Virus record (IMG/VR): IMGVR_UViG_3300044530_001651
Location: 1-46,543 of that record
Reading direction: 5' to 3' (one strand)
Length of the DNA: 46,543 nucleotides
From: a virus
Shown here: positions 1 through 23,700 of the stretch, piece after piece
Position numbering within the stretch: position 1 is the first letter of the stretch
Layout: the number at the start of each line of letters is the position of its first letter
The notes under the pieces: model-generated
Database searches by the model: none
Told to the model about the DNA's origin: nothing
The model's input: only the letters and a program-made list of their open reading frames with translations
Program-made: the position numbers and the translations under genes

Positions 1-741
1 AACTACATCAATAGATGCCTGTGCTACATCATCTCCAAATACAAAATCTCTTTTTGATGAACCATCACCCCAACATACCATTTCCTCACCTTCTACATTA
101 AATAATTTCCAAATGTTAGAGGATATTACCGTTGCATCTTGCGCAAAATTATCGTTTGTTCCATAGATGTTAGAAGGTCTAATTACAGTCCAATTATCCC
201 AACCATACTGAACTCTTAATGAATCCAATGTAAGTTCTCCCATTCTCTTTGTCCAACCTGGATGCCAATCTAAACGAGATGGGGTTGATGCCCAAGTTTC
301 TTCTTGATTCCAAGTATCTTCTTCATTCATTACATCTGCTGGCTTATAAACTCCAACCGATGAAAGATAAACGAACCAATCAACCTTTGCATCAAACGAT
401 GCTTTAATCATATTGGTATTAAACATCAACATTGGGAATAGATAATCAGCAGGACAAGTTGATGACCTTGCTGGTGAGCCTTTTACTCCTGCTATATGTA
501 ATACAATATTAATATCATCTAACTTAAACAAATCCTCACAATGTGAAAGATATGTTAAATCGGTTTTTACCAATTCCAATCTATCTTGATATTGTCCCTT
601 TAAGAAATTTAAATTTTCACTAAATCTTAAATCTACTGCATATACTTTTGCAGCATCTTCTTCTAAACATTTTTTAACTGCTGGTAATCCTACCAATCCA
701 TTTGCTCCCGTAACCAGAACGGTTTTTCCTTTTAATTCCAT
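1..741 (-). CDS. Extended SDR, NAD(P)-dependent sugar epimerase/dehydratase-like, C-terminus cut off by the window edge
   Basis: The reading frame starts at the ATG at 741 and is open to base 1, so only the first 247 residues are present. The N-terminus carries a Rossmann nucleotide-binding motif (VLVTGANGLVG, residues 8-18), followed by a typical extended-SDR layout: acidic residue after beta-2, HIAG, YLSSVGVY, and later RPSNIYG and a conserved RDFVFGDD segment. Extended SDRs epimerise, dehydrate or reduce nucleotide sugars. The lysine of the YxxxK motif is present (GWTKRMGE), but the position normally holding the catalytic Tyr is Pro (PGWTK), so the chemistry may be altered. It is the last visible gene of the glycan island and begins 7 nt after the preceding gene's end. 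The leader AAAATAAAAATAAA upstream of the ATG has no Shine-Dalgarno sequence. The fold is secure; the substrate is not known. Confidence 0.85.
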   Translation of the reverse strand, partial: MELKGKTVLVTGANGLVGLPAVKKCLEEDAAKVYAVDLRFSENLNFLKGQYQDRLELVKTDLTYLSHCEDLFKLDDINIVLHIAGVKGSPARSSTCPADYLFPMLMFNTNMIKASFDAKVDWFVYLSSVGVYKPADVMNEEDTWNQEETWASTPSRLDWHPGWTKRMGELTLDSLRVQYGWDNWTVIRPSNIYGTNDNFAQDATVISSNIWKLFNVEGEEMVCWGDGSSKRDFVFGDDVAQASIDVV

Positions 742-4744: not shown

Positions 4745-5380
4745 TTAAAATACTACCCATTTACCACTTCCGTAGTGTGGATATTTTGATTTATATTCAT
4801 AATGAATTACATCGGATGGAATATCTTTCTTTGTATTCCAAGTTGCTTCCGTTGGAGTGTAGGTTGAAACCGCATTATCTTCTACTATAAAATATACGGG
4901 TAAATCAAAGTTTCTAGCATATTTATGAACTTCATAAAATATACCACTTTCAAAACTCATATCTCCAACAAATACCCAAACCTTTTCATCACCACCTTTT
5001 TCTTTGATTCCCATCGCTACACCTAACGCAATCGATAAAGTACCTCCAACAATAGCAGATGCATAAAATTTCTCATCTATTTTACATAAAGTAATTGATT
5101 TACCATTCAATATTTCATTTTTAATCCATTCAGGTGAAATACCATGTAATAGTGCGTGATAGTGAGACCTCCAAGTTGAAAATACCCAATCATTAGCAGA
5201 TATTCTTTTAAATATTTCTATGAGTTGTTCTTCATTACCATTTGATAGATGTATAGGTCCTCTGATTTTACCGTTTTCCCACTCTTCCACTATATCATTT
5301 TCAAAGTCAATTAAATCCTGTGGTGTGAGTGTAGTATCTACCTCATTTAAAGTTTTATATTGTTCTAAATTTTGTATCAT
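4745..5380 (-). CDS. ThDP-dependent dehydrogenase E1-alpha-like protein, short form
   Basis: The 211 residues match the core of the thiamine-diphosphate-binding E1 alpha fold: WRSHYHALLHG (70-80), a Gly/Ala-rich helix GGTLSIALGVAMG (112-124), and the ThDP/Mg2+ motif GDM (139-141, usually GDG) with N169 in VEDN about 29 residues on. Family members are normally over 300 residues and work with a beta subunit; here the C-terminal third is absent and no E1-beta-like gene is seen in the window. The RmlC-like gene upstream overlaps it by one base (TAATG). It may take part in making an unusual sugar or acyl donor, or work with a host subunit. Fold confidence is good, function is uncertain. Confidence 0.7.
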   Translation of the reverse strand: MIQNLEQYKTLNEVDTTLTPQDLIDFENDIVEEWENGKIRGPIHLSNGNEEQLIEIFKRISANDWVFSTWRSHYHALLHGISPEWIKNEILNGKSITLCKIDEKFYASAIVGGTLSIALGVAMGIKEKGGDEKVWVFVGDMSFESGIFYEVHKYARNFDLPVYFIVEDNAVSTYTPTEATWNTKKDIPSDVIHYEYKSKYPHYGSGKWVVF

Positions 5381-5916
5381 TATCTATCTCTTTTTTGTAA
5401 TATTGGATTATTTGTTGGCCATTCCATCTGATATTCGGGGTCGTTCCATTTAACAACACCTTGTTCGTCAGCATCGACATAACCGTCTTTATAAAATAAA
5501 TTATAGTGAAACATACAATCGGTTAATGCATAATGACCATTTGCAAAACCTGGTGGAACTAATACTTGATTTCGCAATCTTTCTGAAATAATATACGATT
5601 CCCAATCTCCATAAGTAGGTGAATCTTTTCTCATATCTAATACAACTAAATAGATATCACCAACTGCTGCTTGAACTAATTTCCAAGTCTTATTATCCCA
5701 ATGCAATCCTCTCAATACTCCTTTATAAGAACGAGAAAATCTTCCATGTACTTCACATTTACTATCGATATAATCGACTATTGGGTGTTCAATTGAATGA
5801 AATGTTGTCCATATTTCACCTCTATATTCTCTAAATACAGATGGTTGGAATGTTGGAACTTCATAACCAAATTTTTTCGATGGAGTAATTTGAAACTCAT
5901 CCCATTTACTACTCAT
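5380..5916 (-). CDS. RmlC-like dTDP-4-dehydrorhamnose 3,5-epimerase family cupin
   Basis: The 178-aa protein follows the RmlC pattern throughout: GVLRGLHWD with catalytic His72, KLVQAAVGDIYLVVLDMR, DSPTYGDW, VLVPPGFANGHYAL (119-131), FHYNLFY with the conserved Tyr138, and WNDPEYQMEWP near the C-terminus. Length is normal for the family (about 180). RmlC enzymes epimerise C3 and/or C5 of 4-keto nucleotide sugars on the way to rhamnose and other deoxysugars. No complete rhamnose set (RmlA, RmlB, RmlD) is recognised next to it, so the product may be another sugar or the substrate may come from the host. It lies between an SDR epimerase and the ThDP enzyme in a tightly spaced run. Confidence 0.9.
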   Translation of the reverse strand: MSSKWDEFQITPSKKFGYEVPTFQPSVFREYRGEIWTTFHSIEHPIVDYIDSKCEVHGRFSRSYKGVLRGLHWDNKTWKLVQAAVGDIYLVVLDMRKDSPTYGDWESYIISERLRNQVLVPPGFANGHYALTDCMFHYNLFYKDGYVDADEQGVVKWNDPEYQMEWPTNNPILQKRDR

Positions 5917-5917
5917 A

Positions 5918-6883
5918 TTATGTATTGTTTGCGTACCCTAATGGAAACCCATTTCTAAACTCTGCTCCCATTTTTGGAACAATCATTTGATATGCTTGAA
6001 TTAATTCTTCAATACCTCTATCCAACCCCCACTCTGGCACCCATCCAGTTTCCTCTAGCTTTGCGTTAGAAACTATGTAATCTCTCTTATCGGGGTCTTC
6101 GTAATAATCGTTGTATGCTACGGCAAAATCCTTTACGTGGGATTGAATCTTTTCTAATAATTCTTGCTTTGAAAGATTAGCATTACTCAACCCTACATTA
6201 AATACTTGACCTTTATATTTTTCGTAGTTTATAATCATAAATAAAAATGTAAATGCAACATCTTGAATGTGAATAAAATTTCTCTTAAAGTTTTTTTCAA
6301 ATACTACGATATATTTATCTGTAATTGCTTTATAAACAAAATCGTTTACCAATAAATCGGTTCTCATTCTAGGTGATACACCAAATACAGTTGCCAATCG
6401 GAAAGTGATTGCCGATGTGGTTGCTCTTAAAAAAGTTTCAGCATCACACTTTGTTTGCCCATACACTGATATAGGTGTTAGTGGTGAATCTTCCGTACAT
6501 TCAGTTTGCCCAACCCCAACACCGTAACCACTATTTGTGTTTGGATATAAAATCTTTTTATCCTTTGCAAATTTTACTATGTTACAAATTTGGTCAAAAT
6601 TGATTTCCCTTGCCAGCTTTGGGTCTGCTGCACACGCAGGAAACCCAACAATTGCAGCTAATGGGATTATCACATCGGCTTCATTACACAATTTTTGTAA
6701 AAGAAATTCATTACGAACATCTCCATATATAAATTTGAATTTAGGATTTGAAGTATATTGTAATAATGACGTTTGGTTAAATAATAGTTTATCCAATACC
6801 ACTACCTCATAGTTTTGTTCCAATAACATATTAACTAATACAGTACCTAAATAACCTGCACCACCTGTAACTAATATTTTCAT
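5918..6883 (-). CDS. NAD-dependent sugar epimerase/dehydratase (extended SDR)
   Basis: This 321-aa protein is a complete extended SDR. It has the glycine-rich NAD motif GGAGYLG at 7-13, D31 after beta-2, DVR near 55, PLAAIVG, and the catalytic pair Y141-x3-K145 (YGQTK) with a preceding NTNSGYG. NFIHIQDVA and FNVG later in the chain are typical of GalE/RmlB-type enzymes. It likely converts a nucleotide sugar (epimerisation or 4,6-dehydration) for the neighbouring glycosyltransferases. Unlike the SDR at the left edge, its catalytic Tyr is intact. It starts 4 nt after the LamG gene ends and is followed 1 nt later by the RmlC-like gene, so the three are probably co-translated. The exact sugar cannot be read from sequence. 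Confidence 0.9.
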   Translation of the reverse strand: MKILVTGGAGYLGTVLVNMLLEQNYEVVVLDKLLFNQTSLLQYTSNPKFKFIYGDVRNEFLLQKLCNEADVIIPLAAIVGFPACAADPKLAREINFDQICNIVKFAKDKKILYPNTNSGYGVGVGQTECTEDSPLTPISVYGQTKCDAETFLRATTSAITFRLATVFGVSPRMRTDLLVNDFVYKAITDKYIVVFEKNFKRNFIHIQDVAFTFLFMIINYEKYKGQVFNVGLSNANLSKQELLEKIQSHVKDFAVAYNDYYEDPDKRDYIVSNAKLEETGWVPEWGLDRGIEELIQAYQMIVPKMGAEFRNGFPLGYANNT

Positions 6884-6887
6884 AATT

Positions 6888-7652
6888 TTAGAAATAAATG
6901 TTCTTTTCTATATAAAATTGAGGATAATTTCCACTAAAACTAACATCCCACACTTTATATCTATTGTAATGATTAAAATCACATAAAAATGCAAAATTAT
7001 TTCTATATGGATAATCGTAATTTAATTTTCGTAAATCATTATAAACTATATGTGAATAATCCGTTGCGTAGTTATCGATAAAATCTTGAATTTCTTCAAT
7101 TTTTAATTTTTTGTTTAACACAAATGCCATTTCAAACTCAAAATCTCCAATACATTGATGTTCTTCTGGACCAATCATACTCCCACACCCAAACCAATAG
7201 AAAGAATGTTCGTATTTCATCTTTTCACCATCTTCAAATGCAATAGTTCCTACTAATTTTCCATTTTTATAACATTTGATAGTTCTTTCCAAAAAATGGT
7301 CACAAATCATAGCGTACTCATTGAATTCGTTAATTTCTTCTGGTAATAATCCAGTAAAAATTTGTTTTGCGTACATTTCAGTTCTGCCATCTTCAGTTTT
7401 TTTTGAAAACCAATATGTAAATCCAATCGAAATAACTCCCAAATTATCTTTATAAGCAGAAATACCTGAATGCATTCCATTTCTGGCAATTGCAAATGAT
7501 TCTTTATTTGTAATTACGGTATCAGGAAATACTTTAAACTTTACGAATAAAGAAAAATCCTCATCCATATCTTTATCAATTCTTCTTGACACCGCATATC
7601 TACTTTCCGGCAAAACGAAAAATATACTATCTTTGTTTACTCTTAAACTCAT
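6888..7652 (-). CDS. Stand-alone LamG/concanavalin A-like domain protein
   Basis: The 254-aa protein is beta-rich with LamG hallmarks: SLFVKFKVFPD, IKCYKNGKLVGTIAF, a YWFGCGSM strand, and GDFEFEMAFVLNKKLKIEEIQDF, which mirrors the usual LamG ending in which a 'G.i.e..i....L...ei..' segment follows the jelly roll. No glycosyltransferase motif, signal peptide or membrane segment is present. The start is set at the ATG at 7652 because it gives an ATGA overlap with the upstream radical SAM gene; the longer frame would overlap by 22 nt. The protein resembles the LamG inserts of the three GT7 proteins upstream, including a late NFAFLCDFNHYNRYKVWD segment. A glycan- or protein-binding role is likely but unproven. 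Confidence 0.65.
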   Translation of the reverse strand: MSLRVNKDSIFFVLPESRYAVSRRIDKDMDEDFSLFVKFKVFPDTVITNKESFAIARNGMHSGISAYKDNLGVISIGFTYWFSKKTEDGRTEMYAKQIFTGLLPEEINEFNEYAMICDHFLERTIKCYKNGKLVGTIAFEDGEKMKYEHSFYWFGCGSMIGPEEHQCIGDFEFEMAFVLNKKLKIEEIQDFIDNYATDYSHIVYNDLRKLNYDYPYRNNFAFLCDFNHYNRYKVWDVSFSGNYPQFYIEKNIYF

Positions 7653-9064
7653 ATTTTTATTGTTGAACAAAAGTGATAAAATTCTTCTAATTCAGGGAAT
7701 GTTTTACAAAAATCAGTTCCTCTACGTTTATCATGATTTGAGAAATATTGATAAAAACTATATCTATTTTTCATTTGTTGTGTTGCATCCTGCGGAGAAA
7801 CCATCCAATCATAAATTCTTTTTACTTTTTGAACCTCAACATCAGAATATCCAATATGTTTTGGGTCAAATGATGGTGCCGCATAATATGTAATTAGTTT
7901 GGCTTGGTCCGTAATATGTTTAGCGTAATCAAAAGGAAGTACCTGAACCGTCTGATGTAGCGGGTATCGTAAATATGATGAATCTAAAAACACTGCAGAA
8001 TTCCAATATCTATCGGTAGATGCGTATACATCTTTTAATGTGTAAATATTATGAATTAATTGTTCATAATTAAAAACACTTAACGCATTGTATGTAGACA
8101 TGAATGTTATAATAGTTCTTGGACATTGTGTAAGAATTTTATTTACGTTATCCCAAAATTTATTGAATTCTAATCCAGTACGAATGTATTCTGCTTGCTC
8201 ACCCCACGTATCCGTAGATGTAAATATTACAATTTCTTTTACCCTACCTTCATCCTCTATTTTTTTTATTTTTTCAATTAGTTTATCTATTAATTTATCA
8301 GGAACTCCTAAATTTGAATTAATTGCTAATTTTAATTCAGTATTTGGGTTTGGATGATTTAGAATGTAATCTAATACACCCCAAGTATCCTTTGACATTA
8401 ACGGTTCACCACCAGTAATTCTAAAAGTGTGTAAATCTTTGTATAAATCAGGCCACCATTTCCAAAATGCTTCAACATAAGGATTATATTCTTTGTTTGG
8501 GATGGGTAATTTATCTTCATTTTTCATCCAATCAACTGAATTGAAATTGTCTAATGTTGGATACGCTCCAAATTCTTCAATTTCTTCCATCCATTTTGAA
8601 CTGTATGCAGGACCACAATAGGAACATTTAAAATTACACGCATTTGAGAATGCAACTTCTACATACTTTGGATTAAAATCTTCTCTCCAATCAGATTGGA
8701 TGATATCATTTATAAATGGATAAGACCAACTTTCACCTGATTTAAAAACTCTATCCGAAAAACGGTCTGAATTATCTTCCACTTTCCAACAATAATCACA
8801 TTCGGTTGGTCTTGCTCCTTGTAACATTTCTTTTCTACGAAGTTTTTTGTATCTCGTATTGTGAAGTGCAGATGGATTTCGTGCAATTTCCGTTTCTGAA
8901 ATTTTATGTGTTTGAGGGTGGTGACATGAGTGGTTATGCCCACTTTGTAATTGCAATGTTACCTGCGTCCATTTAGCGGCACACATACCTGGACCAACTG
9001 CATCTAACTCATCTTTAACTCTTAAATATATCGGATTTTCCGAATAACTTTTATCTTCTGCCAT
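7649..9064 (-). CDS. Radical SAM enzyme with extra N-terminal cysteines (twitch/SPASM-like)
   Basis: The 471-aa protein has the cluster motif CNFKCSYC (C143, C147, C150) and GGEP at 218-221. Before the core are further Cys/His residues: MCAAKW (C28), SCHH (C47), and CDYCW (C89, C92). This N-terminal pattern is remembered from 'twitch domain' radical SAM proteins that recur in marine phages. They are expected to bind an additional Fe-S cluster. The protein is the second radical SAM enzyme of the island but differs from 3541-4743 in length and domain order, so the two are unlikely to be recent duplicates. The stop overlaps the downstream LamG gene by ATGA. The substrate is unknown. Confidence 0.85.
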   Translation of the reverse strand: MAEDKSYSENPIYLRVKDELDAVGPGMCAAKWTQVTLQLQSGHNHSCHHPQTHKISETEIARNPSALHNTRYKKLRRKEMLQGARPTECDYCWKVEDNSDRFSDRVFKSGESWSYPFINDIIQSDWREDFNPKYVEVAFSNACNFKCSYCGPAYSSKWMEEIEEFGAYPTLDNFNSVDWMKNEDKLPIPNKEYNPYVEAFWKWWPDLYKDLHTFRITGGEPLMSKDTWGVLDYILNHPNPNTELKLAINSNLGVPDKLIDKLIEKIKKIEDEGRVKEIVIFTSTDTWGEQAEYIRTGLEFNKFWDNVNKILTQCPRTIITFMSTYNALSVFNYEQLIHNIYTLKDVYASTDRYWNSAVFLDSSYLRYPLHQTVQVLPFDYAKHITDQAKLITYYAAPSFDPKHIGYSDVEVQKVKRIYDWMVSPQDATQQMKNRYSFYQYFSNHDKRRGTDFCKTFPELEEFYHFCSTIKI

Positions 9065-9068
9065 ATTT

Positions 9069-10535
9069 TTATTTTAAACAATGAACATTTATTAATTTAT
9101 GTTTATCGGAAATGATTTTAGTGCTAATATGTTTATACTTCATATTATTTATACCATCTTTTTTATAATCAATCTTACCCTGTTGCATTTCTAATACATA
9201 TCTTCTTTCATTTCTAGCCGTTGTTTCTCCTTTAGCCCATTTATCAACACCTCCAACTTTAATTAACCCCTCGGTTTCATGTGGTAGACAGAAAAATTTA
9301 CCATCTCTTCTATGCGGTAATATTACATGAGGTATTTGTATTTCTCTTTCCTCAATACTAACATTATACATTACACCATCATTTACTTCAGCCTGGTCTA
9401 TTACAAATTTACCATCAGTTATTTCATCAAAATTATAATGTAATATTAAACCATCCGTTGAATATTCTTTATGTAATTTTGAAACATCTTCACTTGATAA
9501 TGCTCTATTCCATAATTTAATATCGGCAATTTCACCTTTAAAAAAGGCGTGTGGTTCAAATGGTTCTACGGTAGATGTGTGTCCTATGTAAAATGGCTCT
9601 GTACCATATCTTTTTAAATTATAGTTGTATTCAACTGGAGATTGTGTGCCAGTTCCGTTTCTAGCATCACTTTCATTTCCATTCAAATAAAAATGCATTT
9701 TCTTTTCTAAATCATCAACTACCATTGTTACCCAAGTCCACTCACCTTCATAACGCTTGAACCATTGATATATGTGTTCTCTGTGTGAGTTCCACATCAT
9801 ACCAGTATATGCTCTACTGTTATTAAAGGATAATCCCCAATCATAACCTGGTTTTCTGAATATAGGATATTCAACAAATTTTCTTTCAGTATCACCAATT
9901 AACCAAATAGGAACTTTTTCTATTTGTTGTTCTGCTTTTACTAATACTGAAATCGTATGTGAATTAGATATTGCCATTCTAGTTTGTTCTGTGGATGGTA
10001 TTTTAATATAAGATTGCTTACCATCAAATAGTGCCACATTTTTTACTTTAGCAAAATCAATAGTTTGTTTATCCACATATCCTTCCATAACACATCTCCA
10101 AAAAAGGTCATCATCTTCCATACCCCAATCCCAATAGTCATTTGAATAACCATTAGTTGCTAAAACTTGTTCTTTTGTAAAAACAACCGCACCACCAAAG
10201 TATTCCTGATATTTTAATTGATAATCAGATTGTGAAATACGAACTGCAATGTGTTGTGGATTTTCTTCTGGATATGAATAATCACAACTATCATCTTCAG
10301 GCACCATATCAATATCATGCCAAACAATATAATCACATCCATCATCAATTGCGTGCTTTGCAGCAATATTTTTCATCAATCCTCTGTTGAATAAATATTC
10401 ATCACATTGATGTGCAATATAAATGGTATGGTCAATTCCTTTCTTTGTTAAGAAATTAGTAACCCAAGGAACAAATTTATTCATGTGTTCCTCTCTGTTT
10501 CTATATGGTACGCAAACACCTAACTTATGTCCCAT
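9069..10535 (-). CDS. GT7-type glycosyltransferase with an inserted LamG domain (paralogue A)
   Basis: The 488-aa protein begins as a beta-1,4-galactosyltransferase-like GT-A enzyme: PYRNR (10-14), FNRG (49-52), the metal-binding HDIDMVP (73-79), FGG (113-115), NGYSNDYWDWGMEDDD (128-143). A LamG-like block follows at about 167-390 (SYIKIP, FYLNGNESD, FFKGEIADIKLWNRALS, ILHYNFDE). The GT7 pattern then resumes with LPHETEG (His419, probable third metal ligand) and DGINNMKY (460-467), the usual C-terminal GT7 signature. So the LamG domain is inserted in the catalytic domain, not appended. All GT7 catalytic motifs are intact, making activity likely. It is the downstream-most of three paralogues. 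Donor (UDP-Gal/GalNAc/Xyl type) is an inference from the family. Confidence 0.85.
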   Translation of the reverse strand: MGHKLGVCVPYRNREEHMNKFVPWVTNFLTKKGIDHTIYIAHQCDEYLFNRGLMKNIAAKHAIDDGCDYIVWHDIDMVPEDDSCDYSYPEENPQHIAVRISQSDYQLKYQEYFGGAVVFTKEQVLATNGYSNDYWDWGMEDDDLFWRCVMEGYVDKQTIDFAKVKNVALFDGKQSYIKIPSTEQTRMAISNSHTISVLVKAEQQIEKVPIWLIGDTERKFVEYPIFRKPGYDWGLSFNNSRAYTGMMWNSHREHIYQWFKRYEGEWTWVTMVVDDLEKKMHFYLNGNESDARNGTGTQSPVEYNYNLKRYGTEPFYIGHTSTVEPFEPHAFFKGEIADIKLWNRALSSEDVSKLHKEYSTDGLILHYNFDEITDGKFVIDQAEVNDGVMYNVSIEEREIQIPHVILPHRRDGKFFCLPHETEGLIKVGGVDKWAKGETTARNERRYVLEMQQGKIDYKKDGINNMKYKHISTKIISDKHKLINVHCLK

Positions 10536-10536
10536 T

Positions 10537-11967
10537 CTACAATAATACCGATAGATGATGATAGTTATTCATTGTTACATCATTTAATACTTGATATAAA
10601 CAACTATTTAAACCATCTTTATCTGTGTTATATAATTTAGTTTTAACTTGATTTAAAAATCTTAATTGGTTTATACGAGTTTCTCTGTGAACCCAGTTTT
10701 TCTCATTCCAACTATTTGTTTTATGAGATAATAATTTAAATAAAGATTTTCTTCTATATGGAACTGCCATTTCTCTACCCAATGATTCATGTGATTTTAT
10801 GAAATGGCAATTGTGTATTTCTCCGTTATTATTATTAAATGATAAATCTAATAAAGTATCTTCTTTATAGAATTTAAAATCATAATATAATTGTAAATGT
10901 TGTGCGGATTTATAACCTCTAAAATTTTCTAATAAAGAATTTTCTAAAACATTGTCAGATAATATTTCAATTTCTTTATCTTTTAATTTACAATCATATA
11001 TTGCAAATTCGGAAATCATTCCATAAAAAAAGTTTTGATTAGAATCTCTTTCTGGTGAACCAACTCCTAAATAAAAATATTCTTCATTTGAATAATCTTT
11101 AGGTGCATGTTTTACTTTTTCAGTATTAACTAACGTACCATCTTTATAAAAAGAAATTTGGTTTTTTTCATAATCAAAAGTTAAACAGATTTGAGTAAAA
11201 TGATTAGTTAATATTTCTGAATTAATAGAAGTGCAGTTATCAGTATTATCCCAAAAATCTATTTTATATCTTCTAAATGAATTATAACTTATATTTGTAT
11301 CATAACCAGGTATAGAAAATACAGTATACTCATCATAATCATTATTTGGGTTAGATGTTATTTCATCTGGCTTAAATGTTATTAATATTGTAGTATCCTT
11401 TTCAAAATCTAATAATTCTTTTTTTGGTATTTTTATATAAGAATCGTTTCCACTAAATGATAATCCGTATAATTTTTTGGTTTCATTTTTACCAATTATT
11501 TTAGAATCTAATGGAATTTTTTTCTGATTTACTCTAAATAAAAGGTCGTCATCTTCAAATCCCCATCCCCAATATAAATTGGAATACCCGTTTATTCGTT
11601 CAAATGTATCGGAACTAAACATAGTTACACCACCAAAATAGTCATCAAATGATAAGTTTTTAGATTTATCATATTCTAATTCAAAATTAGTTGCAAGATG
11701 CATAGGTAATTCAGAATAAGAATAATCAACCTCAATTGGTAACATATCCACATCATGAAATACAACATAACCACATCCTAATTCTTTTGCTTTAATATAT
11801 CCAATATTTAATAACTTTCCTCTATTAAACGGTTTATCATCAGTTTGTTCAACTACAATAATTTCGTGTTTAATTTTTTTGGATTTTAAATATGAAGATG
11901 TTATTTCACCGAATCGGGTGAGATGTGATTCTCTATCTCTATATGGTACAATTATTCCTAATTTCAT
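10537..11967 (-). CDS. GT7-type glycosyltransferase with an inserted LamG domain (paralogue B)
   Basis: The 476-aa protein has the best-preserved GT7 motifs of the three: PYRDR (8-12), FNRGKLLNIG (47-56), HDVDMLP (71-77), FGGV (111-114), NGYSNLYWGWGFEDDD (126-141). The LamG-like insert runs from about 165 to 388 (SYIKIP, ISFYKDGTLV, FYGMISEFAIYDCKL, LYYDFKF). The GT7 tail follows with LLSHKTN (His415) and DGLNSCLY (451-458). Family knowledge says the DxD and His ligands bind Mn2+ and the EDDD segment contacts the acceptor and contains the catalytic residue. It ends 1 nt before paralogue A begins and starts 5 nt after the small 113-aa gene ends. Likely an active sugar transferase whose LamG part may hold the acceptor. 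Confidence 0.85.
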   Translation of the reverse strand: MKLGIIVPYRDRESHLTRFGEITSSYLKSKKIKHEIIVVEQTDDKPFNRGKLLNIGYIKAKELGCGYVVFHDVDMLPIEVDYSYSELPMHLATNFELEYDKSKNLSFDDYFGGVTMFSSDTFERINGYSNLYWGWGFEDDDLLFRVNQKKIPLDSKIIGKNETKKLYGLSFSGNDSYIKIPKKELLDFEKDTTILITFKPDEITSNPNNDYDEYTVFSIPGYDTNISYNSFRRYKIDFWDNTDNCTSINSEILTNHFTQICLTFDYEKNQISFYKDGTLVNTEKVKHAPKDYSNEEYFYLGVGSPERDSNQNFFYGMISEFAIYDCKLKDKEIEILSDNVLENSLLENFRGYKSAQHLQLYYDFKFYKEDTLLDLSFNNNNGEIHNCHFIKSHESLGREMAVPYRRKSLFKLLSHKTNSWNEKNWVHRETRINQLRFLNQVKTKLYNTDKDGLNSCLYQVLNDVTMNNYHHLSVLL

Positions 11968-11972
11968 TTAGA

Positions 11973-12314
11973 TTATACTTTTTCGATATCTTTTTTAGGT
12001 CTTGCTCTACGAGGTGGTGGTAATTCTGCCCCTTCTTCGGTTTGGGCAGGTTCTGTTGGAACATTTCCAGCAAAAGGTTTTTCTGAATTTGATGATGCAC
12101 CATTTTCTTTTGCAATATTATAGAATTCATACAGATAATACGCAACTCTATCACTCCACTCTGATTTGTTAATTTCTTCAAACCAAATAGTAAGTGCATC
12201 TAATGAGTTTGCAATTTTTTCTAATGCTTTTACTTTTCTAGTTTCTAACACAACTGATTCTAAATTTTCGTTTGTAGAAGGTGTTGTATCAGACTGTAAC
12301 TTAATTTTTGCCAT
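11973..12314 (-). CDS. Small protein of unknown function between GT7-LamG paralogues
   Basis: The 113-aa product is not recognised. The first 85 residues are probably helical and contain KVKALEKIANSLDAL and WSDRVAYYLYEFYNIAKE; the C-terminal part is low complexity and Pro/Glu/Arg-rich (AELPPPRRARPKKDIEKV), so probably disordered. No membrane span or signal is seen. The start is preceded by AATATAAAAATAAA, the same A-rich leader as other genes here, and the gene is spaced 5-7 nt from both neighbours, so it is a real member of the operon. It might be an adaptor or assembly factor for the transferases, but nothing in the sequence shows this. Confidence 0.6.
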   Translation of the reverse strand: MAKIKLQSDTTPSTNENLESVVLETRKVKALEKIANSLDALTIWFEEINKSEWSDRVAYYLYEFYNIAKENGASSNSEKPFAGNVPTEPAQTEEGAELPPPRRARPKKDIEKV

Positions 12315-12321
12315 TTTATTT

Positions 12322-13779
12322 TTATATTTTAATTTGATGCTTATAAACTCCTGTTTTAATTTCTTCGGTTGATATTAAATCGTATGATAATGTATTCAAA
12401 CCAAATTTATCAGTATCTAATATATCAGTTGCAATTTCATAAAAGAAAATATTTTCATTTTCTTCAAATATTTCATTTTTTTCTGTCCAATTATAGTTCT
12501 CTAATTTAGTAAATTTTTTTGAATTTTCCAAGATTTGAAACCGTCCATTTGATTGTTCTGGCATATCAAATTCATAAGATAAATTCAATTCTTCGGAATA
12601 TGTTTCCTGATGTATTCCAGTTGATACTATTCTTGGATTTGAAAATGTTTTAGAATCATCTACATAAAAATCTCCAAATTTTTTATCAAATGGTACATTT
12701 ATAACCGCTTCAAAATTTGTAGTTATTGTATTGTTTGTTGTTTTGTATCCGTCTGTATATAATTTTATTATTTCAGAATCTGCTAACGCGTAATCAAATA
12801 ATAATAAGTTGGATATTTTGCCACTAAATGAATTTTTAAATGCTAAACTACCAATCCATAAATCTTTTCCTTTAAAATCCATTAAATGTTTTGGTAATTT
12901 ATCTAATGTTTGCACAATTTTACCATCAACATATAAACTGGCTTTTTTCTTATCCATATCAACCTTTAATGATAGGTTTATCCATTGATTGGCATGAGAT
13001 TTATGTGGATACCACATTTGATGTAAATTATTATCATCACTCCACAATTGAACTACAATTGCTTCATTTTTCATAATAAAAATTCCCATATCATATCCTT
13101 GTTTTCCAATAATACACCCATTATTTGATTGGTTGTTATTGATAAAAACATTCATTGATATTGTAAATGAATCTTCAAAAATATAATCGGTTGTTTTATT
13201 TGCTCTTACAAATACACAATTATTTTCATTTGATTCAAACGGATATATTGTTTTTTTAATGTATTTATTTACCTCTTTTACATCTGTTAAAACATGCGGT
13301 TTATATATATTTTTAGTAAAAAATCTTTTTGCAGATAATAATTTGTGTTTTTTTAATCTATACAAAAAATCTATCCAATGAAAAGAACCTCCCCAATAAT
13401 CATTACTAAATCCGTTTGCTTCGAAGAAATTTTCTTTTGTAATTTTAAAAGCACCACCTACCCAATGTGGATATGGTTTTAAATTTGGACAAAGGTGAGT
13501 TGGATAGTATTCAAAATCGTAATTGCACGATTCCTGTTTAGGTAAAATATCTATATCATGGAATACATAATAATCTGAACGATTTTGTGTTATGGATGCA
13601 CCAATATTGCATAACTTTCCATAATTGAAATAAACATCTGCATCAATTTGTTCTATGAAATGAATTTCGTAATCCGTTTTATCTTTTAAAAAGTATTCCA
13701 TGTGACCCACAAAGGTATATAGGTCTTGTAAACGATTGGAGTACGGTACTATAATTGATAACTTTTTATTGTTCATCAT
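12322..13779 (-). CDS. GT7-LamG paralogue C with degraded catalytic motifs
   Basis: The 485-aa protein has the same plan as paralogues A and B: GT7 start (VPYSNR, 11-16), HDIDILP (74-80), NGFSNDYWGG, a LamG-like insert from about residue 185 to 400 (ASLYVDGKIVQTL, FSGKISNLLLFDYAL), and a GT7-like tail (FGLNTLSYD). The acidic GWGxEDDD motif is replaced by GGSFHWIDF (130-138), FNRG by FNYG (51-54), and the metal-ligand His of the tail motif is absent (ILENSKKF in its place). The DxD is kept. It may be a binding or regulatory pseudo-enzyme or use another acceptor. The start could be either of two adjacent ATGs. Confidence 0.75.
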   Translation of the reverse strand: MMNNKKLSIIVPYSNRLQDLYTFVGHMEYFLKDKTDYEIHFIEQIDADVYFNYGKLCNIGASITQNRSDYYVFHDIDILPKQESCNYDFEYYPTHLCPNLKPYPHWVGGAFKITKENFFEANGFSNDYWGGSFHWIDFLYRLKKHKLLSAKRFFTKNIYKPHVLTDVKEVNKYIKKTIYPFESNENNCVFVRANKTTDYIFEDSFTISMNVFINNNQSNNGCIIGKQGYDMGIFIMKNEAIVVQLWSDDNNLHQMWYPHKSHANQWINLSLKVDMDKKKASLYVDGKIVQTLDKLPKHLMDFKGKDLWIGSLAFKNSFSGKISNLLLFDYALADSEIIKLYTDGYKTTNNTITTNFEAVINVPFDKKFGDFYVDDSKTFSNPRIVSTGIHQETYSEELNLSYEFDMPEQSNGRFQILENSKKFTKLENYNWTEKNEIFEENENIFFYEIATDILDTDKFGLNTLSYDLISTEEIKTGVYKHQIKI

Positions 13780-13793
13780 TTTAATAACCTATT

Positions 13794-14645
13794 TTATATA
13801 GATATAATTTTTTTAAATAATTTATCCCAATTTTTATAATTTTCATAGTTCGCAGTTGGGCAATATTCAAACATATATGTTACATCATCATCAATTGGCA
13901 TTTGAAAGTTTTCTCTCCGAAGTGCTTGGTACATTTTTAAATATTCATCTGAAAATGCATAATCTTTTCTAATATCTGCTACTGATTTAATTCTATCTAT
14001 ACAAGTAGAATCCCATTTAAAATGATGAACCTGAACATTATACTCATCAACGGGTGCAATTAATGGGTGATTCCATCCCATCCATTTCCAAGTTGTTTGT
14101 CCATCAATTTTAGCATAATGTTGTCCTGATGTTAATTCAATATTTCCTTTTACTATACAAATTTTGTTTGGACATGCTCCACTCATTGGGTATCTGAAAA
14201 ATCCAGCATACGGAAATTGCTCAAATATATTATCAGTTTGATTTATTTTACTAAATTCACCATCTTCCCCAATTCTATCTATAAATCCACCTCTTACTAA
14301 TTCCCACCCGTTATTATTACAATCCGCTATTATTTCTGATAATGGTTTTGAATATAAATGAAACTCATCATCATCCGATATTACCCACCAATCATTAGGA
14401 TATTTTGATTTTTCTTCGTTGTATAATTTGGTAACTAATTCCCAATTATATTTTTCTCCAATTGCTCTTCTTACTATTTTCGCATTTGAAAATTGTGAAA
14501 CAATATCGGATACATCATTGTATGTACTAACACCTTCCCATTCATATACAACCACCCACATCTCATCTACTAAATCGGCATAATGCTTTAGCATGTGATA
14601 TAAAGTGTTTGTTCTACTACCTGTTACTGTAACTAATCTAATCAT
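13794..14645 (-). CDS. GT-A family glycosyltransferase (GT2/GT92-like)
   Basis: The 283-aa protein starts with a short GT-A-like strand (IRLVTVTGSRTN), has WWVISDDDEFHLY with the acidic cluster at 91-94 as the likely metal/nucleotide-sugar site, and VQVHHFKWDST further on. The 'DDDEF...HFKWD' combination is typical of glycosyltransferases annotated as GT2-4 or GT92-like. No membrane segment is present, so it is cytoplasmic. It overlaps the upstream methyltransferase gene by ATGA and is followed by GT7-LamG paralogue C. Donor and acceptor are not identifiable. Confidence 0.65.
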   Translation of the reverse strand: MIRLVTVTGSRTNTLYHMLKHYADLVDEMWVVVYEWEGVSTYNDVSDIVSQFSNAKIVRRAIGEKYNWELVTKLYNEEKSKYPNDWWVISDDDEFHLYSKPLSEIIADCNNNGWELVRGGFIDRIGEDGEFSKINQTDNIFEQFPYAGFFRYPMSGACPNKICIVKGNIELTSGQHYAKIDGQTTWKWMGWNHPLIAPVDEYNVQVHHFKWDSTCIDRIKSVADIRKDYAFSDEYLKMYQALRRENFQMPIDDDVTYMFEYCPTANYENYKNWDKLFKKIISI

Positions 14646-15400
14646 TTTCTTTTAACTAATGTTAATCCAGTTGATGCTGGTTTATTTTTTTGAATACCAA
14701 AATTAAAAAGGTCAAATACTTCCCAATTTGGATTATCCTTTAATTCTTTTGCAAATACAATTGGTCCGTGCCAATCATCAAAATCACCTCTATCTTTTAC
14801 TTCGTTTGTAACGATGTAACTATCTGCATAGTTAGGGTCGGTATCGTGGATTGAAATGATTCCATTTGGAGAAAGTAATTGTGAGTATAACTCAAAATCT
14901 TCTTTAACATTTTCATAACTATGCCCTGCATCAATATGCAAATAATCTATCTGAATATCATTGAGAACAAAATAATTATGAAATGCTTCTTCTGTTGTTT
15001 TATTAATAATTCGTGGATGAAATGTTCTTCTAAAAAAAGATTCTTCTCTGAACCAATTTACATTACCCCCAATACCATTCATCGCATCAACTACATAAGT
15101 AACTCCAATATCTCCCCAATTTAAATCAGGATTTCCTTCAAATATTTTCTGATTATATAAATCATATCTAGCCTGTGTCATTAATCTTGGAATAAATCCA
15201 CCACCACTTCCCAAACATACACAAGTTTTTGCTCTCATATACTGGATGATGGAATACACAATTAATCCATCACCTAAATGTAAATCAGTTGCACCATGAG
15301 ACCATCTATAAGGAACTGGAGAATCTTCTTGTTCCTGATACTCATTGAATTCGATATTATTTGTTATAGTATTTTTTATGTATTGTAAATCTTGTAGCAT
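14642..15400 (-). CDS. Class I SAM-dependent methyltransferase (Methyltransf_24-like)
   Basis: The 252-aa protein has the SAM-binding glycine-rich motif CVCLGSGGGF (60-69) and the later YLHIDAGHSYENVKEDF (153-169) followed by LSPNGIISIHDT, the arrangement of small-molecule or glycan methyltransferases of the Methyltransf_24 group. It probably methylates a sugar or glycan made by the island. The start is the ATG at 15400; the 62-nt gap before it holds a possible host-type promoter. The stop overlaps the next glycosyltransferase by ATGA. The class is secure, the acceptor is not. Confidence 0.8.
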   Translation of the reverse strand: MLQDLQYIKNTITNNIEFNEYQEQEDSPVPYRWSHGATDLHLGDGLIVYSIIQYMRAKTCVCLGSGGGFIPRLMTQARYDLYNQKIFEGNPDLNWGDIGVTYVVDAMNGIGGNVNWFREESFFRRTFHPRIINKTTEEAFHNYFVLNDIQIDYLHIDAGHSYENVKEDFELYSQLLSPNGIISIHDTDPNYADSYIVTNEVKDRGDFDDWHGPIVFAKELKDNPNWEVFDLFNFGIQKNKPASTGLTLVKRK

Positions 15401-15462: not shown

Positions 15463-16350
15463 TTATTCAGTTATTTTAGTATAATATTTTTCAACTTCAT
15501 CTTTAATTTTTGGCCATAGAAAATTTGTAAAGAAATCGATTGATTGTTCTTTTGATGGATGATTTTTACCACCCAACATTGGTTCGTTTTTGTTGACAAA
15601 GTATTCTAGCATACCACCACCAAATCCATTTACCCTAACATCATCTGTAAATATAAATTTACTAAAATCAATTTTTTCTAATAGTTCTGATATTATATTT
15701 GCTTCGAACCATGAATCGTCAAATGGTTCTAATTTATCAAACAAACTTTCTGTTTTTAGTATAGAATAATTTCCTGCGTCTGAATCTGTTTTTTTTTGAA
15801 GAATCTGTAACTTGTTTACTGCAACATCCATTTGAAATAAATTACCTATACAAAACATTTTATATGGTATATTTTTTTCTTTAAAATACTGTTGAGTATG
15901 ATATATACTTTCTAATGTTTGCAATATAGCACCATGTATTGAATAATATTTTTCAAAGAATTCTTTTCCATATCCTGATATATCAGTTCCGTTTAACATA
16001 TAGTTTATTTTACCAATTCTTTCAGGATGCATATTCATTCTTGGAAAGTTTTTTGCTCTATCCTCATCTACAAATACAGGATAATCCCATCTATCGATTG
16101 TAGACCATTGAACTATTGCATAATCCACTTTCCAATGTGGTTTTAGTGCGTTATTATACTGTAATGAATTTAAAAACTTAAATACTTTTCTCCTCATTAT
16201 GTCATTTCCAGAACCACCACAACCTGCATTATATACATCAAATGGTTCCGCTGATTTTTTATTATCAAATAAAGAATATCCTTCCGTTTCAAACCCAATA
16301 GGCCAGTTTTCATCTCCAGCAGAAAACGAGCATCCGTTTATTAATATCAT
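15463..16350 (-). CDS. SGNH/GDSL-like hydrolase
   Basis: The 295-aa protein begins ILINGCSFSAGDE, where Ser8 fits the block I nucleophile of SGNH hydrolases. AGCGGSGND (42-50) supplies the block II/III Gly and Asn49, and NHPSKEQ (His264) fits block V. The Asp normally three residues before that His is not seen (GGKNH), so the catalytic triad is incomplete or uses another acid. In glycan clusters, such proteins usually remove or transfer O-acetyl groups. The gene overlaps the upstream glycosyltransferase by ATGA. Fold likely, activity plausible. Confidence 0.65.
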   Translation of the reverse strand: MILINGCSFSAGDENWPIGFETEGYSLFDNKKSAEPFDVYNAGCGGSGNDIMRRKVFKFLNSLQYNNALKPHWKVDYAIVQWSTIDRWDYPVFVDEDRAKNFPRMNMHPERIGKINYMLNGTDISGYGKEFFEKYYSIHGAILQTLESIYHTQQYFKEKNIPYKMFCIGNLFQMDVAVNKLQILQKKTDSDAGNYSILKTESLFDKLEPFDDSWFEANIISELLEKIDFSKFIFTDDVRVNGFGGGMLEYFVNKNEPMLGGKNHPSKEQSIDFFTNFLWPKIKDEVEKYYTKITE

Positions 16351-17669
16351 AATAATTTATTTATATTATTCATTATATTGCAATAATGTGTTATCAATTT
16401 TTGTTTATTTTCTTTTAATATAGGTGTTTTTTGAATAAATGTATTTTTAGCATCGTTTATATTTTTATTTTTTAAAAAATCTACTATCATATCAATTTGT
16501 TCTAATTCATTTTTTGTTTGAATTCCTTGTAAACCAAAATCATCTAAAAACAAATCTATACCAATTCTTTTATATTCACTATATACTTTATTGGAACCAA
16601 ATATCAATGGAAGTTTTTCCGATAATATTGGTTTTATAGATTTTTCTGTAAAAAATCCATATTTTAAATTAAAAATACAATGTGTTTCACCAACTACTTC
16701 AAAATATGATAAATCGTATTCTTTTTCTCTAAAATAATAAAGTAAATGGTCAAACTCAAATGGAGCATTCAAAGGTGTAATATTTATTTCATTTCTTATA
16801 GATTGTAATTTATTAAAATTTTCTTTTGTAAAATATTTTATATGATTATCGGTATGCGTGTTAGTATGGTCTGTATATATGTATCCTTCTCTAACTGCTT
16901 GTAAATATTCTATTAAAAATTTTTCATTTATACAATTTAAACCTGTTTTTAATATATCCGATTCTTTTGCTTTTAATAAAAACTGAACTCTATGAAATCT
17001 TGGTTTTAATGCCTGACTACTATACACATATAGTTTTTCAGTATTATGTGATATATTTAGATTTTTAAATATATTATAAAAATTATCATTATATGCTAAT
17101 TTACCAGTAGTATGATTTGGAAATAAAAAATTTGTAAATTGTCCTTCGGCCATCAAATGAAACATACAATAGAATGAATCGTAGTGAAAGTTTTTATCTC
17201 CATCAAACAATTCATAATCTGTCATTTTAATATGATTAAATTTAAAATCATATCTAAAATATTGTTCATCTTTTTCGTACTCAACTGCTTCTAAAAATGC
17301 AAAATTAAATAAAACTTTTGCATTACGTTCAACATACAGCTGTTCCAATTTATTAAATTCAATTGGATTTTTTTTCATTAATGGTAAATAAAATTCACTC
17401 CATATTTTTCTATCAATAACAATTATTAAATTATCAATTGGGTTTGAATACATTAAATCAAAAGTTGTTATACCATCAAATGATTTTAATTTATTTAATA
17501 CATTATATGGGTTTTGTATATAGTGATGTATTTTAATTTTTTCACCAGCATTATCTATAACAATTTCATGATGTTTTTCTATTTTTATTGGGGTTACGGA
17601 AATCAAATTTGCTTCTGGAAACAAATTCTGTAACTCATTATATGTTGCTAATATATTTAATGACCTCAT
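16347..17669 (-). CDS. Glycosyltransferase-like protein with GT10-type C-terminal motif
   Basis: The 440-aa protein is mostly unrecognised, but residues 335-365 read GFFTEKSIKPILSEKLPLIFGS followed by YSEYKRIGIDLF, the same 'TEK..KP....P...G......IG' segment seen in 749-2152 and 18913-20010, matching the donor-binding part of GT10-like GT-B enzymes. A sugar transferase role is likely. The start at 17669 overlaps the end of the upstream GT4-like gene by 32 nt; no nearer in-frame ATG was found that removes the overlap. The stop overlaps the SGNH gene by ATGA. The N-terminal domain has many Asn, Tyr and Phe and no membrane span. Confidence 0.55.
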   Translation of the reverse strand: MRSLNILATYNELQNLFPEANLISVTPIKIEKHHEIVIDNAGEKIKIHHYIQNPYNVLNKLKSFDGITTFDLMYSNPIDNLIIVIDRKIWSEFYLPLMKKNPIEFNKLEQLYVERNAKVLFNFAFLEAVEYEKDEQYFRYDFKFNHIKMTDYELFDGDKNFHYDSFYCMFHLMAEGQFTNFLFPNHTTGKLAYNDNFYNIFKNLNISHNTEKLYVYSSQALKPRFHRVQFLLKAKESDILKTGLNCINEKFLIEYLQAVREGYIYTDHTNTHTDNHIKYFTKENFNKLQSIRNEINITPLNAPFEFDHLLYYFREKEYDLSYFEVVGETHCIFNLKYGFFTEKSIKPILSEKLPLIFGSNKVYSEYKRIGIDLFLDDFGLQGIQTKNELEQIDMIVDFLKNKNINDAKNTFIQKTPILKENKQKLITHYCNIMNNINKLL

Positions 17670-20739: not shown

Positions 20740-23700
20740 CTACTTATTTAATAACTTTTTAATTGATGTTATTTCATTTTTTAATTCAGTAATTTCACCA
20801 TTTTGTTCTTTTATTCCTTCAATCAATAAGGCAATTATCTTTTCGTAATCAACTCCTAAATATCCATCACCCTTTTCCTTTACAACTTCTGGTAATACTT
20901 CTTGAATTTCTTGTGCTAAAACTCCTACTTCTTGAACATTTTTTGGTTTGTTAGAAATACCGTTCCAATTAAATGTATATCCTCCAATTTTTTTAATTTT
21001 ATCCATTGGATTTGAAATAGGAATAATATTTTCTTTTAATCTCTTATCGGAACTAGCTAATGCGTAAACATCACCAGTTGCTCTTATATCACCATTTATA
21101 GTTAGAACACCACTAGATACTGAAAATTCACCAACTGATAAATTTGTTATTGAACCATTGGTTGCACTTAAAGTAGAAAATGTACTTAATCCAGAAAAGT
21201 TTGATGAACCCTTTACGGTTAAAAAATTAGTGGCAGATAAACTTGTATCAACTTTAAATTGATTTGAACCATATAGTGATTGTAATCCTGCTTGGCAAAT
21301 TTCAACACTTCTAGGTGCACTACCAACTACGGCATTTACCCCACTAAAATTTGGAGTTTTTAAAGTAATACTTTCACCACCAACTAAATAATTTACTCCA
21401 ATTTGATGTTTTATTCTAACATTATATGTTCCACCTGAAGGTATTACTATAGAACCACCTCCAGTAGATGTTATACCTCGTTCATAATTAGGAGCATTAT
21501 AAAATACATAACCCGATGCAATAAGTGCTTCGCCCACTCCCACAACTTCTAAACTTACCCAATGGTAAGTTTGAACATAAGTTGCAGTAGATATTTGCAT
21601 CCAATATGAAGTACCTGCCGAATTGGAAATCATTGATGCTATCTCCGCATCTGTTATTGAAACCTCTGTTCCAGCTGCAACAACACCCGTTGATACATTG
21701 TTTGAATAGAATGTAGTACTTGCTTCAGACTGTAAGTTTTGTCCAAAAATTGCACCATTTCTTACTACTGAATCTGTACCACTAAAATCAGATAAAGCGG
21801 ATGTAGAACTTCCTATTCTAAATGAAGTATCATCCGTCATAATTACTGCATTTCTAGAACCATCTTTTATAAAGAATCCTAAATCATTTGAGTTAATTTC
21901 TATTGTACCAGTACTCGTTTTACTTATTTTATCGGTAGAAATTGACCAACCTCCAATTGTAGCACCTAACGCGGATAATTCACTTACTGTTATTTTATCT
22001 GCCGTTACAGAACCAGCTGCAATCTTACCCGCAGTTATGGCATTTGTAGCAATTTTATCTGCAACTATTGCGTTCGCTGCTATTTTATCGGCAATTATTG
22101 CATTCGCTGCTATTTTACCAGAAGTAACTGCATCTGTTGCAATATTTCCCGCTTGTACTGCATTAGCAGCTAATTCTGTATTTGTTACGGTACTTAATGT
22201 TGCCAAACCACCCAATCCTGTAACTTGTCCAGTTGATACGGTGTTTTGAGTTGCCAAAGTCCCCAATCCTGTAACTTGTCCAGTTGATACGGTGTTTTGA
22301 GTTGCAAGGCCTCCTAATCCTGTAACTTGTCCAGTTGATACGGTGTTTTGAGTTGCAAGGCCTCCCAATCCACTCACCGTTCCAACTGGAACACTACTAC
22401 CAACAGCTATGTTACCAACTATATTTAGAGTAGTTCCATCCCATGTTAATGAATTTGATGCAGATTTTAAAGATAACCTTCCAGTTGTTCCATTACTACC
22501 TATAAATGCACCAATTTGGTCATATCCTTTCGTTGCTTGTCCAATTGAAATAAACGGAGATGTTGTGCCACCTGCAATTGTAATATTAGCATTACCTGAT
22601 GAATTTGTTCCAACATTTATTGTGTTTTGTACAAATGATTCTTTAGATATAAACATTTCAGCAGCTACAAAAAATGAATCTGTTCCGAGTGATTGCCAAA
22701 ATGTGGTTTGAGTATCCGGTTGTTTATTTAAATTTGCAGATGCATTTGTTTTTGTAGCATAATAAGTTCCACTATACAACACCACATCTTTACGTGTTGG
22801 GTCTTGACTAACACTATTGTAAGTTGTAGTAGAATTCCAAGGACCTCTAAACACTACACCTGGCCCGTCTCCCCCAGTCGCTCCGGGTGCACCATCTGCT
22901 CCGTTCGTTCCATTGGTTCCGTTCGTTCCATTGGTTCCATTAGCCCCTGCTGCTCCAGTAGGAACTTTTGTTGCTCTAACAATTATCGTTTGAGTTTGTC
23001 CAGTCGTACCTTCACTATCAGTATGTGTTACTGTTAATGTTACCGATGCTTCTGCTGCATTCATTACCGCAGATGTCATTGTTAATGTTGCACTACTAAC
23101 AGTTGGTGGAGTTGAGAATCCTGAAGTAGATGCAATGGTCATAGAAGTAAATCTACTAGTTGTTCCTTCTAATGCACTTATAGTTACATTTGATAAAGTT
23201 CCAGTTTGCGTTCCTGCTGCATTAGCCAATACAGATTGCGCTTGAGGTGAAGCAGAAATTAATACCAATGGAACTGCTTTTTTAACTTTTGATAAACTTA
23301 ATGTATCGGTTACAGTTCTACTTGTTCCTTCAGAATCAGTTACAATTGCACTTATATTTACAGTTGTGGAATTTATTCCATCCGCTAAAGTTTGATTACT
23401 CAAAGTTACTACTCCAGTTGTATTATTTACTGTTAAACTCCCACCAGTATCTACTCTAGTTGCAGTTAATGTTGCTGGTAAAGTGATAGTAGAACCATTG
23501 TAAGTTTCTTTTACAACTATCGTTGAATCTAAAAATGAATCAATTTGTGCACCTGTTGATTTAGCAGTTACACTTTGGTCTTTTGGTGTTGATGATATAG
23601 CTAAAACAGGTGCTGCTTTTTTATTTTTAGTATAAGTTACGTTTTTTATAATAGAAGTTGTATCACCTGCTCCATCCTTATAACTAATTGTTATATCCAA

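Follow-up and report, generated by a model that had tools for sequence, protein, structure and literature searches.

LamG domains inserted within GT7-type glycosyltransferases in a conserved gene cassette of uncultured T4-like phages

Three genes, here called A, B, and C, were analyzed in IMG/VR virus record IMGVR_UViG_3300044530_001651 (positions 1 to 46,543; this entire stretch of 46,543 nucleotides is referred to as the window). Each encodes a glycosyltransferase family 7 (GT7, beta-1,4-galactosyltransferase-type) domain that is interrupted by a LamG beta-sandwich (Table 1). Identity to A is 29% for B and 26% for C, and searching Pfam with the three proteins resulted in matches to Glyco_transf_7N, Glyco_transf_7C, and Laminin_G_3 for each of them, with E-values from 1e-18 to 5e-5. 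The scores for Glyco_transf_7N and Glyco_transf_7C were 66.9 and 65.8 bits in A, 67.6 and 63.1 bits in B, and 51.2 and 23.3 bits in C, all passing the curated Pfam cut-offs of 27 and 23 bits, and Laminin_G_3 scored 52.4, 59.5, and 45.6 bits, respectively (cut-off 27.6). None of the Glyco_transf_7C matches runs to the end of the 78-position profile; they break off at position 59 in A, 60 in B, and 43 in C. Among 86 representative relatives, Glyco_transf_7N and Glyco_transf_7C were each found in 86 and Laminin_G_3 in 79 (E ≤ 0.001). A preliminary description of the window, made from its letters alone, had given the exact coordinates of these genes and proposed the order GT7, LamG, resumed GT7, which is upheld by Pfam as well as by the models and the profile described below. 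It had also called the genes tandem, which applies to A and B, as these adjoin, but not to C, which is separated from B by a gene for a 113-amino acid protein. The insert of about 220 residues that it described does contain LamG, but is longer in A, at about 253 residues as a whole with the sandwich spanning about 162–402.

That the GT7 domain resumes after LamG was established with structure models of A and C and with profiles, the evidence for B being of the latter kind. A profile of the 86 relatives matched B4GalT1 in the Protein Data Bank with an E-value of 4e-52, carried by residues 3–152; the segment following LamG (427–476) was aligned with the DGLNSLTY region of B4GalT1 at 7.5 bits (i-Evalue 16), which is not significant alone. 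The AlphaFold model of A, from an 86-row alignment, has a predicted local distance difference test score (pLDDT) of 94.0 and a predicted template modeling score (pTM) of 0.88, and aligned with B4GalT1 (1tvy_A) over model range 1..488 (VIA Z 28.6, root-mean-square deviation (rmsd) 1.7, 216 aligned residues) and with B4GalT7 at Z 27.4. The middle of A aligned with LamG and pentraxin folds (4dqa, Z 22.0, rmsd 2.5, 203 residues aligned, model 162..402). The model of C (50 rows, pLDDT 92.4, pTM 0.85) likewise aligned with B4GalT7 (4irq_B) over range 1..485 (Z 26.5, rmsd 2.5, 210 residues aligned), tied with B4GalT1, and its middle aligned with PAPP-A (8d8o_B) at Z 22.9 over 176..402. A hidden Markov model (HMM) built solely from the tails of 61 insert-free bacterial GT7 proteins matched A at 409–484 (4.6e-12), B at 404–474 (1e-7), and C at 409–477 (7e-4). 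When this tail HMM was applied at 1e-3 to 224 full-length relatives, assigned by profile to 98 A, 96 B, and 30 C proteins, the last quarter of the protein was matched in 98/98 A, 93/96 B, and 19/30 C, and no match was obtained for any of the 224 reversed proteins or of 112 proteins from the free LamG slot described below. The models of A and C, which align end to end with B4GalT1 and B4GalT7, together with the independent tail profile, rule out a chance match or a LamG domain that is merely C-terminal.

The site of the insert could be narrowed to a few residues, as the two GT7 halves are nearly adjacent in insert-free relatives. A scan of bacterial and archaeal genome contigs yielded 80 loci with GT7 relatives, of which seven (10 proteins) carry the LamG insert; LamG was not found in the other 73, where a few frames are cut or short. 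Since insert-free bacterial GT7 proteins are common, the view in the preliminary description that GT7 enzymes are mostly known from animals does not hold. Both halves were found in 60 insert-free bacterial proteins, and the gap between them is −2 to 9 residues in 56 (0–4 residues in 47 of these), only the later part of the second half being matched in the other four; the gap is 221–244 residues in the 10 genome-scan proteins with the insert. With the insert removed, A reads ...CVMEGY / PHRRDGKFFCLPHE..., aligning with the bacterial ...CIKQGLTFKRRLGRYRCLDHK..., which places the joint just before P407 and 9–12 residues ahead of the metal-ligand positions. P407, C416, and H419 of A correspond to Pro335, Met344, and His347 of bovine B4GalT1, in a numbering that fits the mutant names R228K, W314A, C342T, and M344H; in the same terms LamG enters between about Gly329 and Pro335, just ahead of the mobile lid of B4GalT enzymes. 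The least confident stretch of the model of A is residues 421–440 (block means 73 and 76). In four of the genome loci with the insert (L164, L165, L168, and L169) the GT7-LamG gene is accompanied by further members of the phage cassette, and these contigs have the look of phage DNA that was binned with bacteria; two more (L166 and L177) are 3-kb contigs. The seventh, L167, is a contig of 65957 bases in which the GT7-LamG gene product is 39% identical to A, with no other cassette gene in the 13.4 kb examined. Among the GT7-like frames of phage loci L001–L163 no insert-free copy was seen; the short frames run off the ends of their contigs, the LamG region is smaller in six B proteins (430–434 amino acids), and one A protein (438 amino acids) is without its start. 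A 396-amino acid A-like frame at locus L109 stands outside this check. An extra PF02709 match in one long relative belongs to a protein that, by eye, reads like a GT2-type transferase.

The insert position is the same in A, B, and C, as had been proposed and as the tail profile, the models, and the trees agree, and the insert is, by the trees, older than the duplications that gave rise to the three genes. Trees were built from the GT part and from the LamG part of 58 of 95 inserted proteins (A and B rows were halved and L177 was left out). Clades A, B, and C received supports of 99, 98, and 96 in the GT tree and 80, 99, and 99 in the LamG tree. For 11 of these 58 proteins the clade label was set or changed to follow an earlier GT tree, so the agreement of clades is a test of the LamG tree only. 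Because a tree of LamG alone returns the clades of the GT tree, the insert was present before the duplications, as the preliminary description had argued, and separate insertions into A, B, and C are unsupported. A single origin, with all inserted proteins in one clade, was not rejected (p-AU 0.743), this tree being 13.3 log units better than the free tree. In the free quick tree, an insert-free long branch (L172, Simkania) falls beside the inserted proteins, possibly through later loss of the insert or through misplacement.

The residues expected of an active GT7 enzyme were counted in the same 224 relatives. D74, D76, E140, D141, and H419, which correspond to the catalytic and metal-binding residues (DxD, E-D, and His) of B4GalT1, are all present in 98/98 A and 96/96 B but in just 3/30 C. 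Taken singly, they are kept in 28, 26, 8, 17, and 15 of the 30 C proteins, and the C of the window has D, D, H, W, and N at the five positions, such that DxD is kept and the other three residues are lost. These counts bear out the earlier observation that the motifs are intact in A and B and not in C and, since so few C proteins have all five residues, C is probably a pseudoenzyme. Y112 occurs in 194/194 A and B proteins and R51 in 193/194, the sole exception being a gap; the R51 position is Tyr in 30/30 C. Tyr112 and Arg51 occupy the positions of Tyr289 and Arg228, which favor UDP-galactose in B4GalT1. A 19-residue hydropathy scan found no membrane segment in A, B, or C, and residue 4 of the A model already lies in the first strand, from which the three proteins should be soluble.

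The inserted LamG domain changes faster than the catalytic part. Median identities for the N-terminal GT part and LamG are 0.71 and 0.43 in A, 0.59 and 0.32 in B, and 0.49 and 0.25 in C, and LamG is the less conserved in every pair compared (465/465 A, 946/946 B, and 55/55 C). A fast LamG joined to slow catalytic parts fits a constant reaction with a changing recognition module.

A and B occur as a pair. Viral contig scans gave 173 loci for A and 176 for B, and the best 80 of each were analyzed, the two sets overlapping in contigs. The genes are arranged as BA in 40, CBA in 39, and A in one of the A-query loci, and as BA in 44, CBA in 32, B in two, CB in one, and BAA in one of the B-query loci. 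The distance from the B stop to the A start is −4 to 1 nucleotides in 128 of 156 BA pairs, with starts set mechanically. The carriers are large uncultured T4-like phages, gp23 of T4-like phages being present in 6/6 long relatives (145–289 kb); the photosystem reaction-centre gene (Photo_RC) was found in 0/6 of these records, which may be fragments. Neither A nor B has a relative at E 1e-3 in 50,697 GenBank phage records, from which records very near the window may be excluded; the best that a divergent B produced was a match at E 0.8, and no match at 1e-5 was obtained with the radical SAM protein encoded downstream of A. No GT7-LamG protein is named in the titles and abstract openings of the open-access literature surveyed, which together with the phage records agrees with the earlier remark that no phage family of this plan has been described. 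As both domains are already known, what appears to be new is the internal LamG insert in GT7, paired and set in a cassette.

The conserved order of this cassette is methyltransferase, DDD-motif protein, C (where present), B, A, radical SAM, and free LamG (Table 1), and the epimerase, cupin isomerase, and further genes vary between contigs. Neighbor counts were made in 4- or 10-kb flanks and are lower bounds. The DDD-motif protein is probably another glycosyltransferase; of 80 loci found via its gene, 75 hold GT7-LamG, the other five ending within 0.5 kb of the DDD-motif gene, and a tail-fibre match is present in 60. GT7-LamG was found in 30 of 41 loci identified via the radical SAM gene. The 11 loci lacking it encode radical SAM proteins that are 42–55% identical, so this enzyme family is wider than the GT7-LamG system.

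Table 1. Positions of the GT7-LamG genes, their cassette, and selected neighbors in the window
Feature	Position	Strand	Description
Gene A	9069..10535	-	488 aa (amino acids); GT7 with LamG insert; catalytic residues intact
Parts of A	insert about 9318-10076		GT7, residues 1-153 and 407-488; insert, residues 154-406
Gene B	10537..11967	-	476 aa; GT7 with LamG insert; catalytic residues intact
113-aa protein	11973..12314	-	Between C and B; relatives in 59/160 A- and B-query loci
Gene C	12322..13779	-	485 aa; architecture like A and B; keeps DxD, without E-D and His
DDD-motif protein	13794..14645	-	Conserved partner; no Pfam or PHROG match
Methyltransferase (Methyltransf_24)	14642..15400	-	Conserved in cassette
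Radical SAM, NCBIfam N_Twi_rSAM (twitch domain)	7649..9064	-	348.6 bits; downstream of A; relatives in 152/160 loci
Free LamG-like protein	6888..7670	-	260 aa; LamG by profile-profile comparison of its slot family
Sugar-nucleotide genes	5380..6883	-	dTDP-4-dehydrorhamnose 3,5-epimerase-like and NAD epimerase/dehydratase; less constant part of cassette
Tail fibre with Peptidase_S74 chaperone	20740..26001	-	1753 aa; upstream of cassette

To survey the slot behind the radical SAM gene, we took, wherever such a gene lies downstream of A or B, the next plus-strand frame of more than 150 amino acids. In the 225 cases (loci overlap), 120 proteins match the free LamG-like protein of the window by BLAST, 104 do not, and one is another radical SAM protein; of the 112 distinct complete slot proteins, 111 are 160–279 amino acids long. 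The free LamG-like protein of the window has no Pfam match at E 1 and is missed at E 10 by a HMMER profile of the inserted LamG, and Laminin_G_3 is reached by two of 33 family members. Its LamG nature is assigned from profile-profile comparison, in which an alignment of 33 slot proteins, both BLAST-matching and non-matching, matched the inserted LamG (hhalign 99.4%, E 8.7e-22). The fixed slot beside the GT7-LamG pair is thus occupied by a highly divergent family of free LamG-like proteins, most of which Pfam does not recognize.

Further features were observed around the cassette, all on the minus strand. A second radical SAM protein is encoded at 3541–4743, and some relatives have several in a row (L288, L361–L363). 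The 211-amino acid product of 4745–5380 matches part of the thiamine-dependent E1 dehydrogenase alpha family and has relatives in 13/160 loci within 4-kb flanks. The products of 749–2179, 16347–17669, and 18913–20010 have no convincing Pfam match and have in common an EK.(F/I)K-like and then a P.L-like stretch, reminiscent of the C-terminal parts of GT-B fucosyltransferase-like enzymes. The tail-fibre gene contains tandem repeats of 30 and 51 bases at 22052–22371, and 26988–30146 encodes a single protein of 1052 amino acids joining SbcD-like and SbcC-like parts, for which the nearest named phage is Microcystis phage Mel-JY01 (41% identity). A promoter scan found no excess over shuffles (98 vs 110.5).

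Among known proteins, B4GalT1 and B4GalT7 share with A the fold over the whole catalytic domain and the motifs FNR, DxD, YFGG, W.W..EDDD, the His ligand, and DG(L/I)N; unlike them, the phage proteins carry the LamG insert, have no membrane anchor that could be seen, and have Met at the Met344 position in only 4/224. The closest sequence relatives of the catalytic parts, at up to about 50% identity, are insert-free bacterial GT7 proteins (for example, L171, L173, L175, and L218), which also have an RRxGxFxxLxH-like segment but whose halves are contiguous, with no LamG found. GT7-type catalytic folds are also encoded by giant viruses (Megaviridae sample A0A5J6VLB6 and Mimivirus LCMiAC01), in proteins of 258–315 amino acids with about 160 columns matched and no sign of a LamG insert among the matches listed. 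In the viral structure search, no TM-score by query length exceeded 0.38 among the best 50 of 316 matches (E ≤ 0.001), which means that no listed structure spans the query well over its full length. PHROG 1721, "galactosyl transferase," matches B weakly at 2–77 (1.4e-4). Pairing of a transferase with a glycan- or protein-binding module is familiar from animals, as in the GalNAc-Ts with a ricin-type lectin and B4GALNT3/4 with PA14, but there the module flanks the catalytic domain and in the phage proteins it sits inside. In lactose synthase, B4GalT1 is joined by alpha-lactalbumin, a separate, non-catalytic protein that acts near the lid to change the acceptor used, whereas the candidate module of the phage proteins lies within the same chain. 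Clusters of jumbo cyanophages such as P-SSM2 bring together an epimerase, a cupin isomerase, and several glycosyltransferases, as here; section 3.4.10 of PMC7824862, which covers them, does not describe paired GT7-LamG genes alongside twitch radical SAM and free LamG.

We tentatively favor, as a reading that could well be correct, that A and B are soluble enzymes that assemble the constant core of a phage glycan, probably one carried by the virion, with LamG holding the acceptor. The activity, donor, LamG ligand, acceptor, and place of action that we infer for A and B would combine as follows. Both would be active, metal-dependent enzymes, most likely adding galactose from UDP-galactose, and would work together, coupled as a pair, in the host cytoplasm during infection. 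LamG sits where the catalytic domain runs on into the metal-ligand strand and then the mobile lid, and by analogy with alpha-lactalbumin and B4GalT1 it may serve as a built-in acceptor module that holds a glycan or protein beside the lid. C, as a degenerate copy, may still bind acceptor or partner. The methyltransferase, DDD-motif protein, radical SAM enzyme, and free LamG would join A and B in building the constant core, with the more variable neighboring genes supplying other sugars. The acceptor would most likely be a protein of the virion, with the tail fibre encoded nearby as the leading candidate. That all of this amounts to a previously undescribed glycosylation system of large T4-like phages, with two GT7 enzymes that have a LamG docking domain inserted beside the lid, a third copy that is dead, a twitch radical SAM enzyme, free LamG as a shared carrier or substrate, and a constant core bearing variable outer sugars on the tail fibre, we regard as unlikely in its full detail.

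Several observations weigh against this assignment. The Met344 position is Cys in 98/98 A (as also in the insert-free relatives L173 and L175), and in the 96 B proteins it is Leu in 38, Ser in 28, Thr in 10, Lys in eight, Val in seven, and Met in four; the third Asp of EDDD is replaced in 13/96 B. Faster change of LamG can reflect weaker constraint alone, and LamG domains also bind proteins or oligomerize. A tail-fibre match lay within the limits in just 8/41 radical-SAM loci, and closeness to tail-fibre genes may mark a general host-interaction region. Soluble cytoplasmic enzymes also make lipid-linked envelope glycans, which makes a target on the host surface possible.

This last point leads to the chief alternative, somewhat doubtful in our view, in which the cassette alters the O-antigen or capsule polysaccharide at the host surface and thereby shuts out other phages, with A and B as ordinary transferases of that pathway whose LamG binds host glycan. 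Jumbo cyanophage clusters of epimerases, cupin isomerases, and paralogous glycosyltransferases were read as surface remodeling in section 3.4.10 of PMC7824862, sugar genes of these kinds also occur in the window, and the nearest named phage for its SbcCD-like protein is cyanobacterial. The photosystem reaction-centre gene, however, was absent from all six long relatives (possibly fragments), tail-fibre matches are frequent in DDD-gene loci, and the window showed neither a flippase nor a polymerase nor a lipid-anchored priming transferase, functions that the host machinery could nevertheless provide. This negative result derives from the minus-strand proteins of more than 100 amino acids, none of which has a convincing membrane segment; two open reading frames exceeded 1.6 on the 19-residue scan, namely the thiamine pyrophosphate-enzyme-like 4745–5380 (1.83) and the Rossmann start of 5918–6883 (1.68). 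LamG could instead be an oligomerization module through which A, B, C, and free LamG assemble into one complex, binding no acceptor. Free and inserted LamG do match by profile, the free LamG slot comes after the radical SAM gene, A and B seldom occur apart, and pentraxins, which oligomerize, are among the closest folds, but a conserved interface would be expected to diverge less between relatives than LamG does, and we consider this explanation improbable. It would be more surprising still, and we think it very improbable, if the GT7-LamG proteins were virion components that use the GT fold for binding and not as enzymes: the five catalytic residues are invariant in 194/194 A and B proteins, which binding alone would not need, even though most of them are lost in C, LamG occurs on phage virions according to PMC7824862, and in B part of LamG matches a PHROG annotated as tail terminator (E 7.5e-7).

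The arrangement of A and B suggests a sugar-adding enzyme with its own docking module, in keeping with the suggestion in the preliminary description that the transferase may recognize its own acceptor. A lectin-like module inside a GT domain, retained together with a nearly invariant partner gene across more than 170 viral stretches, is a natural experiment in how acceptor specificity arises, and offers a tractable way to ask if acceptor choice is governed by a domain inserted beside the B4GalT lid. The cassette also suggests that uncultured T4-like phages have a glycan pathway whose transferases, A and B, are unmatched in the 50,697 phage records.

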